Assembly: GCA_029863035.1 (NCBI GenBank)
Contig: JAOTWH010000077.1
Coordinates: 1-9,736 of the forward strand
DNA: 9,736 bases
DNA from: Acidimicrobiia bacterium
Lineage (GTDB): Bacteria > Actinomycetota > Acidimicrobiia > UBA5794 > JAOTWH01
Direction of reading: 5' to 3'
In this document: piece by piece, positions 1,693-6,048 of the stretch
Numbering within the stretch: position 1 is the first letter of the stretch
Layout: every line of letters begins with the position of its first letter
Made by a program: the position numbers and the translations under genes
The notes under the pieces: generated by a model
What the model was told of the DNA's origin: nothing
The model's input: the letters and a program-made list of their open reading frames with translations, nothing else
Databases searched by the model: none

Positions 1693-2220
1693 TTGAGCAC
1701 CACCGACGGACCTCCGACGCCAGATCGGATGCCAACGCCTGCGACGAACCGCCAGGCGCTCGACGTCGGGGATCCGGCACCCGACTTCACGCTGCGAAGG
1801 ACATTCGAGGAGTCGGTGACGCTGAGCGAATGGAACGCCCGCAGCGCCATCCTCCTGCTGTTCTACGTCTTCGACTTCGGCCGAGTCTGAACGAATGAGC
1901 TGTCCCAGTTGGGACAGTTGGCTCGCGATATCCGCGCGCTCGGGACCGAGCCGATGGCAGTTGCCGTGACAGGCACGTTCTCGCAGCTTGCTTTCGGGAA
2001 ATCGCTTGGCCTCGACTACCCCCTCCTGTCGGATTGGGACGGGCTCGTCGCCAACCGATACGGCGTGCAATACCGCGAGTGGCTGGGGCATTCCGGCGTC
2101 GCCAAGCGTTCGATATTCGTGATCGACAGCGATGGAGTCATCCGCTATCGGTGGCACACCGACGATGCGCTGGTCCTCCCGCATTTCGACGAGGTGGTCG
2201 AGGTATTGCGCCGGCTCTAG
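1693..2220 (+). CDS. Putative selenocysteine-containing peroxiredoxin (AhpC/TSA redoxin fold), in-frame UGA read as Sec
   Basis: Two open stretches in the same frame (1693-1887 and 1891-2220) are separated only by TGA at 1888-1890. Read through, they make one complete peroxiredoxin of 175 residues from the TTG at 1693, or 163 from the ATG at 1729; neither start has a good Shine-Dalgarno. Landmarks (TTG numbering): LDVGDPAPDFTL (23-34), beta strand AILLLFYVFDFGRV (52-65), Sec66, TNEL (67-70), conserved Arg139 in KRSIFVIDSDG, and a DDALVLPHFDEVVEVL C-terminus. The UGA sits exactly at the peroxidatic cysteine position, just before the TNEL often seen after it. A SECIS-like hairpin follows immediately. 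There is no other Cys, so a one-Sec mechanism needing an external thiol reductant is expected. Unusually, the PxxxT/SxxC motif reads VxxxGxxU: Pro and Thr are replaced. The alternative is a nonsense-mutated pseudogene, which I find less likely because the rest shows no decay. Confidence 0.82.
1888..1890 (+). other. Recoded UGA codon (candidate selenocysteine)
   Basis: In-frame TGA between GTC and ACG within the peroxiredoxin gene. The codons on both sides encode FDFGRV and TNEL, which match the flanks of the peroxidatic cysteine in AhpC/TSA proteins, so the expected residue is Cys or Sec. TGA differs by one base from the Cys codons TGC and TGT. Confidence 0.8.
1898..1919 (+). promoter_or_regulatory. 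Candidate bacterial SECIS element (hairpin just downstream of the UGA)
   Basis: CTGTCCC (1900-1906) pairs perfectly with GGGACAG (1911-1917) around the loop AGTT (1907-1910). A G-U pair (1899/1918) and an A-U pair (1898/1919) extend the stem to 9 bp. The loop starts 16 nt after the UGA and has G then U at positions 2-3. Known bacterial SECIS elements lie within the coding region with the apical loop about 16-37 nt past the UGA, a G among the first loop bases, and a GU contacted by SelB. No bulged U like that of E. coli fdhF is seen, but the bulge is not universal. The hairpin also encodes LSQLGQL, so it is constrained by coding. Confidence 0.75.
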
Positions 2221-3274: not shown

Positions 3275-4576
3275 ATGGTGGAGCATGTCAAACGACCAAC
3301 GAAGCAGCCTCAAGAGGTAACCGACGAGATCCGGTCGACGGTCAGCACCATCATCGCCGACGTCGCTCGGGAGGGCACGACCGCGGTTCGGCGGTACTCG
3401 GAGAAGTTCGACGATTGGAGCCCGCCTACATTCCGCGTCCCCGCCACGACGATCAGCGCCGCGGTGGATCGGTTCGACCCGGCGGTCCAGGCCCATGCTC
3501 GCTTCACACTTGAGCAAGTGAGGAACTTCGCCCAGCACCAGCTGCGGAGCATGGGGGAGTTCGAGGTAGAGACTCTCCCCGGCGTGGTGCTCGGTCAGAA
3601 GCACATACCGGTTGCCTCCGTTGGGGCGTACTCACCCGGCGGGCTTTACCCGCTCATCGCTTCGGCCATCATGACCATCGCAACGCCCAAGGTGGCCGGT
3701 GTTGGCAGAGTGGCGGCGGCAGCGCCACCGCGCGATGCGGATGGAATGCACCCGCCGCAACTGTGGGCAATGGCCGAGTCTGGTGCCGACGAGATCTTCT
3801 GTGTCGGCGGGGTGCAGGCTCTAGCCGGCCTCGCCTTCGGGTTGGAAGACTCGGACCCAGTGGACATGGTCGTTGGCGCCGGCAATGTGTACGTAGCCGA
3901 GGCTAAGCGCCAGCTTTTCGGCACTGTCGGGATCGATCTTCTGGCCGGTCCAACCGAGGTGATGGTCATCGCCGACGACACTGCCGATCCGGCGGTAGTG
4001 GCGGCAGACCTGCTGGGCCAAGCTGAGCACGGCCCAACGTCTCCTGCCATCCTCGTTACGACGTCGGCCGAGGTTGCGACTCAGACCGCCCTTGAGGTTG
4101 ACCGGTGGCTGGAGACCTGGCCGACCGCAGCCATCGCGGGAGTTGCCTGGCGTGATTACGGCGCGATCATCCTGTGCGATAGCGACGACGAGATGGTTCG
4201 AGTCTCCGACGAGATCGCCCCGGAGCACCTCGAGATCCACACGGTCGACCCCGAATGGTTCGCCGCCCGACTGCGCAACTACGGGACGCTGTTCGTCGGC
4301 ACGCATGCCACTGTCACGTACTCCGACAAGGCCATCGGCACCAACCACGTCCTTCCCACCGAACGAGCCGCCCGCTACACGGGCGGGCTCTGGGTTGGGA
4401 AGTTCCTCAAGACGGTCACCACCCAGCGGGTGACCGCGCAAGGCTCCGCCGCGGTGGCGGAGCCGGCGGCCGCGGTGGCCGATGCCGAGCTGATGTTCGG
4501 CCATGCCATCAGCGCCCGTCTCCGGCTCAACCCCGAGTATTTTCCCGATGCCCTCTATGGGGAAGGAACCGAATGA
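3275..4576 (+). CDS. Histidinol dehydrogenase-family NAD-dependent dehydrogenase, HpsN-like subgroup
   Basis: A 433-residue, full-length HisD-fold protein. By alignment with E. coli HisD the key residues are all present at an offset of 9-10: Gln249 and His252 (GQAEHG), Glu317-His318 (APEHLE), Asp351 (YSDKAIGTNH), Glu405 and His410 (ELMFGH). These are the Zn ligands and catalytic pair that in HisD oxidise an alcohol through an aldehyde to a carboxylate using NAD. The segment AARYTGGLWVGKFLKTVT (365-382) is unlike biosynthetic HisD and recalls the sulfopropanediol dehydrogenase HpsN and related catabolic homologues. No other his gene is nearby; the neighbours are a MocA oxidoreductase and an SDR. 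I infer oxidation of a primary alcohol on a small polar substrate in catabolism. It starts 2 bp after the previous stop, without a clear ribosome binding site, and overlaps the SDR by 4 bp. Confidence 0.88.
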   Translation: MVEHVKRPTKQPQEVTDEIRSTVSTIIADVAREGTTAVRRYSEKFDDWSPPTFRVPATTISAAVDRFDPAVQAHARFTLEQVRNFAQHQLRSMGEFEVETLPGVVLGQKHIPVASVGAYSPGGLYPLIASAIMTIATPKVAGVGRVAAAAPPRDADGMHPPQLWAMAESGADEIFCVGGVQALAGLAFGLEDSDPVDMVVGAGNVYVAEAKRQLFGTVGIDLLAGPTEVMVIADDTADPAVVAADLLGQAEHGPTSPAILVTTSAEVATQTALEVDRWLETWPTAAIAGVAWRDYGAIILCDSDDEMVRVSDEIAPEHLEIHTVDPEWFAARLRNYGTLFVGTHATVTYSDKAIGTNHVLPTERAARYTGGLWVGKFLKTVTTQRVTAQGSAAVAEPAAAVADAELMFGHAISARLRLNPEYFPDALYGEGTE

Positions 4577-5349
4577 GCGCCCGGCGCGTCACGCTCATCA
4601 CAGGAGCCAGCCAGGGAATCGGCAGGATGCTGGCGCTGAGCTTCGCCGAAGCCGGTGATTCGCTTGTGCTGGCTGCCCGCAATGTTGAGAACCTCGAAGA
4701 GACCGCCCAAGCTGCTCGGGCATTGGGAGCGGAGACATTGGCTGTGCCGACGGATATCACAGATCCCGCTCAGGTGGAGCACATGGCGCAGGCCGCTATC
4801 GACCAGTTCCAGTACATCGACGTGCTCATCAACAACAGCGGCATCGGAGGCCCTTCGGGTCAGCTGTGGGAGCTCGATCTGGAGGCGTGGCGAGAGACAT
4901 TCGCCGTCAACGTCGATGGGGTGTTCCTCGTCTCTCGAGCTGTGCTGCCTCTCATGGTCGAGCGCCGGTCCGGGTCGGTCATCATCATCGGGTCGATCAC
5001 GGGCAAGCGCCCGCTGTGGGGTCGCACTCCCTACGCAACGACCAAGGCGGCTCTTGTGGGCCTCACCCGTACGCTCGCTCTCGAGGCCGGCGCCTATGGC
5101 ATCCGGGTGAACCTCATCTCGCCGGGATTCGTCGCCGGGCCCCGGCTCGATTGGGTGATCGACACCCAGGCCGAGGGTCGCGGTATCTCGACCGCAGAGG
5201 TCCGAGCCGAGATGGAGGCCGAGGCTGCCCTCAACCGGCTGACGCTGCCCGAGGACGTGGCTAAGGCAGCGCTCTATCTAGCCTCGGATGGCGCCAGCGC
5301 GATATCCGGGGCCGATCTCAATGTCAACTCCGGCGCCGTTATGTACTGA
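4573..5349 (+). CDS. Short-chain dehydrogenase/reductase (classical SDR)
   Basis: A 258-residue classical SDR. Cofactor motif TGASQGIG is at 10-17, the DIT acidic segment near 61-63, NNSG at 87-90 (a variant of the usual NNAG), catalytic Ser141 in IIGSITG, and Tyr154/Lys158 in YATTK. The PG motif SPGFVAGP is at 183-190 and the C-terminal ISGADLNVNSG matches the family. It is a cytosolic NAD(P)-dependent oxidoreductase acting on an alcohol or ketone. I chose ATG at 4573 because it overlaps the preceding TGA (ATGA) and has GGAAGGA at 4561-4567; the open frame extends further upstream, but only inside the previous gene. An HpsN-like enzyme paired with an SDR recalls the hps sulfopropanediol genes (HpsO and HpsP are SDRs), but that specific reaction is not shown here. 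Confidence 0.92.
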   Translation: MSARRVTLITGASQGIGRMLALSFAEAGDSLVLAARNVENLEETAQAARALGAETLAVPTDITDPAQVEHMAQAAIDQFQYIDVLINNSGIGGPSGQLWELDLEAWRETFAVNVDGVFLVSRAVLPLMVERRSGSVIIIGSITGKRPLWGRTPYATTKAALVGLTRTLALEAGAYGIRVNLISPGFVAGPRLDWVIDTQAEGRGISTAEVRAEMEAEAALNRLTLPEDVAKAALYLASDGASAISGADLNVNSGAVMY

Positions 5350-5361
5350 GGAGGACTCATT

Positions 5362-6048
5362 ATGAAACTTGTCGATCTGTCGCAGGACATCTATCAGGGA
5401 ATGAAGGTCTACCCGGGCCACCTCAAGACGGTGGTGTTCCAACACGCCACCCATTCCGAGACCAAGCCGCGCTTCGAAGGAGGCTTCTCCTTCCAGACGC
5501 TGGGCTTCATGTTGAACGACAACGGTCCCACCCACGTTGATTCGTTCAGCCACCTGGACCCCGACCCGGATGCCCAGTCCATCGATCAGATGGCGCTGGA
5601 TCTCTTCTATGGGCCGGCGATCTGCCTCGACGTCTCGGACGTGCCGGCCAAGACAGACATAACGGCCGAGCACCTCGACAAGGCCCTGGCCAACTCGGGT
5701 CTGGAATTGGAGAGCGGAGACATGCTCTTTCTCTACACCGCTACGTTCGACCGCTTCCGAGACACCGACGAGTACCTGACCGAGTTCCCGGGTCTGGGCG
5801 ACAGTGGAGCCGAGTGGATCGTCGAGCACGCGGTGAAGACGTTCGGAGTGGACTCACCCACCCCCGACAACCCGATCTCTCGCAGCTACCCGTGCCACAT
5901 GATGTGCCGACGCGAGCACATCACGCATTATGAGAACCTGATACTCACCGAAGTGGTCGGCCGGCGCTTCACGTTCGTCGGGTTTCCCCTCAAGGTGATC
6001 GGTGCGCACGGCGGACCGACTCGTGCCGTGGCCATCCTCGAGGATTGA
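5362..6048 (+). CDS. Cyclase-family (PF04199) metal-dependent hydrolase, kynurenine formamidase/isatin hydrolase-like
   Basis: A 228-residue protein starting MKLVDLSQDIYQGMKVYPGH, the typical opening of this family. The metal motif HxGTHxDxxxH appears as NGPTHVDSFSH (54-64): His58, Asp60 and His64 are kept, but the first His is Asn54 and the Gly is Pro56. A later HITHYENL segment supplies the conserved His and Glu, and GAHGGPTRAVAILE ends the fold. Family members hydrolyse amide bonds of N-formylkynurenine, isatin and other small, often cyclic, amides. The start has AGGAGGA at 5349-5355, which overlaps the end of the SDR stop codon, so it is co-transcribed. It is the last gene of the plus-strand run. 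A hydrolytic role on a cyclic or N-acyl intermediate fits the neighbourhood; the altered metal ligand means activity should not be assumed identical to KynB. Confidence 0.87.
   Translation: MKLVDLSQDIYQGMKVYPGHLKTVVFQHATHSETKPRFEGGFSFQTLGFMLNDNGPTHVDSFSHLDPDPDAQSIDQMALDLFYGPAICLDVSDVPAKTDITAEHLDKALANSGLELESGDMLFLYTATFDRFRDTDEYLTEFPGLGDSGAEWIVEHAVKTFGVDSPTPDNPISRSYPCHMMCRREHITHYENLILTEVVGRRFTFVGFPLKVIGAHGGPTRAVAILED

Follow-up and report, generated by a model that had tools for sequence, protein, structure and literature searches.

A very likely selenoprotein gene of the AhpC/TSA fold in which the Pxxx(T/S) active-site motif is absent

Selenocysteine (Sec) in place of the catalytic cysteine is known among bacterial peroxiredoxins, and the Prx family appears in published selenoproteomes (PMC1794560, PMC1088965, PMC13188914), in agreement with the initial annotation of the locus described here. 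Sec peroxiredoxins have the PF00578 fold and are listed in those sources with TxxU or T/SxxU at the active site (PxxxTxxU in PMC13188914). According to PMC8945050, all six Prx subfamilies share the fuller motif, Pxxx(T/S)xx(C/U); PMC13188914 calls it crucial in Sec-Prx and, in addition, names AhpC/TSA relatives that have UxxC or UxxS. A UAG-coded selenoprotein called 'AhpC' is likewise already known. The authors of Secmarker reported a tRNA-Sec with a CUA anticodon in Geodermatophilaceae, as well as an AhpC selenoprotein of Blastococcus saxobsidens DD2 with Sec-TAG and a bSECIS element downstream (PMC5330540). AhpE, a one-Cys peroxiredoxin, runs a cycle in which an outside thiol system serves as reductant (PMC4360819).

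The protein predicted here shares with the published Sec peroxiredoxins both the PF00578 fold and Sec at the position of the peroxidatic Cys. However, where those proteins are listed with TxxU or T/SxxU, the clade to which it belongs has GxxU, together with Val for Pro, and neither the UxxC nor the UxxS pattern of the listed relatives is found in the window protein. As judged from the published description, the Blastococcus protein resembles ours in being of AhpC type, with Sec at a stop codon and a bSECIS element, and its CUA tRNA-Sec arrangement recurs in two relatives of our gene (L146 and L147); the difference is that Sec is encoded by TAG there, but by UGA in our gene and 12 of its relatives. 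Because Geodermatophilaceae have the CUA tRNA-Sec and a UAG-coded AhpC, and because five of the best database matches to our clade are named Geodermatophilus, it is likely that the Blastococcus protein belongs to the same clade. The PrxU profile (NF040737) aligns over residues 7-139 and scores 57 bits, compared to an equivalog cut-off of 270, and the protein is thus not a PrxU equivalog. AhpE (1xxu, 4x0x) is about 31% identical and has Cys where we predict Sec. The best sequence matches in the PDB are archaeal BCP/PrxQ proteins (2cx3, 2ywn and 3hjp), of which 3hjp is also the best fold match; 2cx3 and 2ywn have Cys where Sec is predicted and, three positions earlier, S or T instead of the Gly found here. 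In the open-licence PMC literature that we searched, we found no account of a VxxxGxxU clade like this one, where every member read has a codon for Sec.

The gene lies on the forward strand of the window, by which we mean the whole stretch of 9,736 nucleotides analysed. From ATG 1729 to the TAG at 2218-2220 the reading frame has a single interruption, TGA at 1888-1890, and both halves lie in one frame. Read through, the gene (1729..2220) encodes 163 amino acids with Sec at residue 54. Translation could start at this ATG or at TTG 1693; consequently, of the extent first given for the gene, 1693..2220, the end stands and the start is one of two candidates. The read-through protein scores 92.8 bits to the AhpC-TSA profile PF00578 (cut-off 26), compared to 20.2 bits for the N-terminal half (from TTG 1693) and 54.3 bits for the C-terminal half, each of which matches part of the profile only. 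This agrees with the original proposal that the gene is whole despite its stop codon. Also consistent with that proposal, the TGA falls in the position of the peroxidatic Cys, a C/U column that is invariant in an alignment of 48 sequences. Asp102 and Arg127 (codon 2107..2109) are invariant in the same alignment. A conserved Arg had been noted earlier in the downstream half, and we take Arg127 to be the active-site Arg of peroxiredoxins. The window protein has no Cys anywhere.

To compare what homologous genes carry at this column, the codon was read directly in 81 loci and found to be TGA in 46 and TGC or TGT in 35, with no other codon in these rows. This is the Cys-or-Sec pattern that the initial annotation proposed as a check. 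The 81 rows are a non-random sample comprising the window, the best matches of protein searches in the class of the nearest relative (G001), in a phylum sample and in the class of G003, and three TGA loci (L004, L007 and L009). Those three are the only rows taken from an earlier set of 21 loci, and L001, which duplicates L046, was dropped from the counts. The rest of the earlier set mostly has Cys at the column, and L011 has TGA in a UxxC setting. Five matches in the class of G003 contain one TGA and one TAG; in L129, L132 and L136 there is no stop between the TGA and the gene end, and the extra TAG of these three presumably lies upstream of the TGA.

Fourteen orthologues, 50-61% identical to the window protein, all keep a stop codon at the column (TGA in 12, TAG in two). 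Nine come from the 395 genomes of the class of G001, score 157-205 bits and have a single TGA each; the next-best match there scores 76 bits and has no stop. Three further TGA orthologues (L099-L101, 167-177 bits) occur in the phylum sample of 396 genomes, where the next match, at 93 bits, also has TGA. The remaining two, L146 and L147 (59% identity), come from the 318 genomes of the order of G007, and both have TAG at the Sec codon. The top match among 399 genomes of the class of G003 scores 100 bits. In the tree of the 81 rows, the clade forms a single branch (SH-aLRT 99). Each of the 15 clade members that were read has a codon for Sec, which is TGA in 13 (the window gene among them) and TAG in two.

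Database entries for this clade are often fragments. Among the 51 matches of a first database search, 32 were pieces of 91-119 amino acids that start after the Sec column and two were N-terminal pieces that end just before it, a pattern that goes beyond chance. In a later search, 118 of the best 120 of 3834 clade matches were pieces of 96-120 amino acids, many of them named peroxiredoxin or redoxin. The expectation that gene callers would split such genes is therefore confirmed, and with the clade catalogued in pieces, annotation does not reveal its Sec. Neither the 15 genes read nor the two full-length proteins in the best 120 of 3834 matches included a Cys form, a count to which the 118 pieces do not contribute, as they do not span the Sec column. 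The two full-length proteins have Trp (P0002) and Arg (P0053) at that column. Each is single-member and counts against the selenoprotein reading; either residue could be explained by a gene call under translation table 4 or by a one-base change.

If the stop codon specifies Sec, its identity should be considered together with the tRNA-Sec of each genome. The codon tracks the tRNA: TGA is accompanied by a tRNA-Sec with a UCA anticodon, as identified by ARAGORN, in 10 of 12 TGA clade genomes (7 of 9 in the class of G001 and all three in the phylum sample), and TAG by a CUA tRNA-Sec in both TAG genomes. The CUA tRNAs, which ARAGORN labels Pyl, score 66.7 and 66.4 bits to RF01852. No tRNA-Sec was found in the other two TGA clade genomes: in G233 Rfam matched a tRNA-Ser, and in G241 there was no match at E 1e-8. 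A search of 22 genomes gave a tRNA-Sec match at E 1e-9 in 14. Those with no match were G1184, G1208 and G1414, whose best homologue has no stop, G779, which has a Cys form, and four (G1016, G864, G885 and G492) of the 11 that carry a more distant TGA homologue; tRNA-Sec is present in the Cys-form genomes G1070 and G797. Neither Rfam nor ARAGORN gave any match in the 9.7-kb window, as expected for such a short stretch.

SelA, SelB and SelD were each found in all nine orthologue genomes of the class of G001, which were the genomes covered by that search (G573, G503, G483, G1294 and G1310 lay outside it). SelA occurs in 258 of the 395 genomes of this class, and its presence is thus necessary rather than telling. 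Genomes with Cys homologues (G006, G007 and G010) likewise have SelA and strong matches to tRNA-Sec, so that the presence of Sec machinery does not single out this gene. Six of the nine orthologue genomes (G001, G062, G058, G160, G125 and G241) have a SelD match that itself includes a TGA in frame.

A search for a bSECIS element at the locus had been suggested as a further check. The window gene has a putative bSECIS hairpin at 1898..1919 on the forward strand, with a 9-bp stem (1898-1906 paired with 1911-1919) and the loop AGUU (1907-1910), 16 nt after the UGA. Its energy of -13.9 kcal/mol and its geometry lie within the published bSECIS limits, given as a loop of 3-9 nt, a stem of 4-16 bp, G in the first two loop positions, a spacing of 16-37 nt and at most -7.5 kcal/mol (PMC13188914). 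A hairpin of this type can form in all 15 clade genes (13 TGA, two TAG), with the loop AGUU, AGUUC or AGUUG and exactly 16 nt past the codon. The bSECIS rules hold for all 13 TGA clade genes (15 of 15 with the TAG genes), for 19 of 33 other TGA homologues and for one of 35 Cys homologues; L053 and L054 only just qualify, with hairpin energies of exactly -7.5. When 45 nt were folded without constraints, 10 of the 13 TGA clade genes (all but L047, L053 and L054) and both TAG genes showed the hairpin. The fourth stem pair from the loop is UA, UG, AU, GC or CG, a standard pair in all 15, although the pair counts use the lowest-energy hairpin and hence lean to pairing. Wherever Leu is encoded under the loop (10 of 10 cases) its codon is TTG, compared to 8.4% at other Leu sites of these genes, and three more clade members have Phe TTC. 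Among synonymous recodings of the window, 41% satisfy the bSECIS rules and 6% reach the window energy; this control is partly circular, as codon usage was drawn from the clade itself. Taken alone against the recoded controls, the window hairpin would be weak evidence for a bSECIS, and its weight comes from its conservation across the clade.

The combination of a kept stop codon, the match between codon and tRNA anticodon, the shared hairpin, and SelA, SelB and SelD in orthologue genomes makes Sec readthrough at UGA 1888-1890 very likely. These patterns support the selenoprotein reading put forward by the initial annotation, and we have high confidence that the gene is intact and encodes a redox protein of the AhpC/TSA fold with a single Sec. 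In our judgement, sequence comparison has taken the case for a selenoprotein gene about as far as it can go, apart from the Sec genes of the host itself and direct detection of the residue. Three other explanations of the stop should be considered. The gene could be a pseudogene, or an ordinary peroxiredoxin gene affected by a nonsense mutation or sequencing error. The sequence offers the stop within the frame in favour of this and nothing more. Counter to this, the stop is conserved in 14 relatives (12 TGA, two TAG), which in effect refutes the idea; in addition, codon third positions downstream of the stop differ more than first and second positions in every comparison given, and frame and fold persist without the frameshift or decay whose absence had been noted at the outset. 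We consider this explanation very unlikely. Alternatively, the organism could read every TGA as Trp or some other amino acid. P0002, with Trp at the column as a table-4 gene call would give, is in line with this possibility, but we regard it as vanishingly improbable: among 10 window genes whose ends were checked, 8 end in TGA (TAG ends the other two, including the selenoprotein gene itself), and TGA is thus an ordinary stop in this DNA; the residue is Cys in the 35 rows without TGA; and two relatives combine a TAG codon with a CUA tRNA-Sec.

It is also conceivable that the halves are made as separate proteins, with termination at 1888 and re-initiation at TTG 1909, as they are divided by gene callers in the 118 database pieces. 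Against this, each half covers only part of the PF00578 profile, and the pairing of TGA and TAG with the tRNA-Sec anticodon would be left unexplained. This reading is highly improbable.

What a protein with Sec at residue 54 would do is a separate question. In all 15 clade members the active site reads VxxxGxxU, and the Pxxx(T/S)xx(C/U) motif is therefore absent; in the window gene, Val47 (codon 1867..1869) stands where the Pro belongs and Gly51 (codon 1879..1881) where the Thr or Ser belongs. In the 81 non-random rows, the motif Pro is absent from 45 of 46 with TGA and present in 32 of 35 with Cys, and other Sec branches mostly have no motif Pro, but retain Ser or Thr. These counts hint that Sec and the loss of this Pro are linked. 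Independent events are not supported, as the tree gives two independent pairs on starred branches (five on all branches) and three changes of Pro state. Like AhpE, the window protein has one peroxidatic residue and no resolving Cys. Elsewhere in the clade, three of 13 TGA members have a Cys 54 residues downstream, L050, which is among the three, has a second Cys upstream, and the two TAG members have one downstream Cys each. The name peroxiredoxin, as first applied, thus holds for the AhpC/TSA fold and not for the motif, and in its enzymatic sense would be a prediction. We place the gene among selenoproteins of the AhpC/TSA family rather than among the classical peroxiredoxins.

The absence of Pxxx(T/S) counts against the usual mechanism of a peroxidase, and Sec may be inserted into a protein that is not a peroxidase, but a redox sensor, a chaperone, a thiol-selenol reductase or an enzyme acting on another oxidant or electrophile. 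This alternative, which overlaps our main reading with regard to Sec, draws on the loss, in all 15 members, of a motif shared by the Prx subfamilies and reportedly crucial in Sec-Prx (PMC8945050, PMC13188914). Yet the fold and the conserved Arg are retained and, given the near absence of Pro from the TGA rows, some relaxation of the motif seems compatible with Sec, although other branches keep Ser or Thr. We consider a function other than peroxidase possible but unlikely.

During translation, SelB carrying Sec-tRNA(Sec) would bind the hairpin and insert Sec at UGA 1888-1890. A peroxidase cycle is the function we favour for the product, with fair confidence. In such a cycle, the selenolate, near Arg127, would attack peroxide to form a selenenic acid, which would be reduced by an external thiol system of the mycothiol/mycoredoxin or thioredoxin type, as for one-Cys AhpE; an outside reductant would be needed because the window protein has no other Cys. 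Since Val and Gly occupy the positions at which Pro and Thr/Ser activate Cys in ordinary peroxiredoxins, catalysis would depend on how reactive Sec is by itself. Whether Sec made Pxxx(T/S) activation dispensable in an AhpC/TSA-fold clade spanning several actinobacterial groups is, to us, an evenly balanced proposition. If true, the clade would represent a peroxidase that depends on Sec and has a different active site, or else a peroxiredoxin fold with a new redox activity. It offers a clean test of the role of Pxxx(T/S), namely whether Sec alone suffices on this fold. Furthermore, a single group of orthologues contains both UGA/UCA and UAG/CUA pairs, and this natural variation strongly supports Sec here.

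Downstream of the selenoprotein gene, at 3275-6048 in the window, lies a block of genes for a HisD-like protein, an SDR and a cyclase. In L090 and L092 such a block is also found, at most about 7 kb from the orthologue, with identities of 71-78%, 54-58% and 69-72%, respectively; HisD homologues near the orthologues in L094 and L095 are only about 38% identical.

Several other loci with Sec-type features were encountered. A second large Sec branch, of FYLFDWSSTU type (L103 and L117-L142), is found mostly in the class of G003. It has a hairpin around CUCCUG-CGUGA-CAGG that is near-identical in sequence across loci, and three of its members (L125, L138 and L140) have Cys in place of Sec. Among more distant AhpC/TSA matches with one in-frame stop, the codon is TGA in three (G108:C166, G123:C14 and G048:C86) and TAG in one (G177:C9). 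An Acidimicrobiia redoxin (L011, 8142) has an in-frame TGA followed by PPC, and looks like the known UxxC Prx-like thiol:disulfide oxidoreductase.
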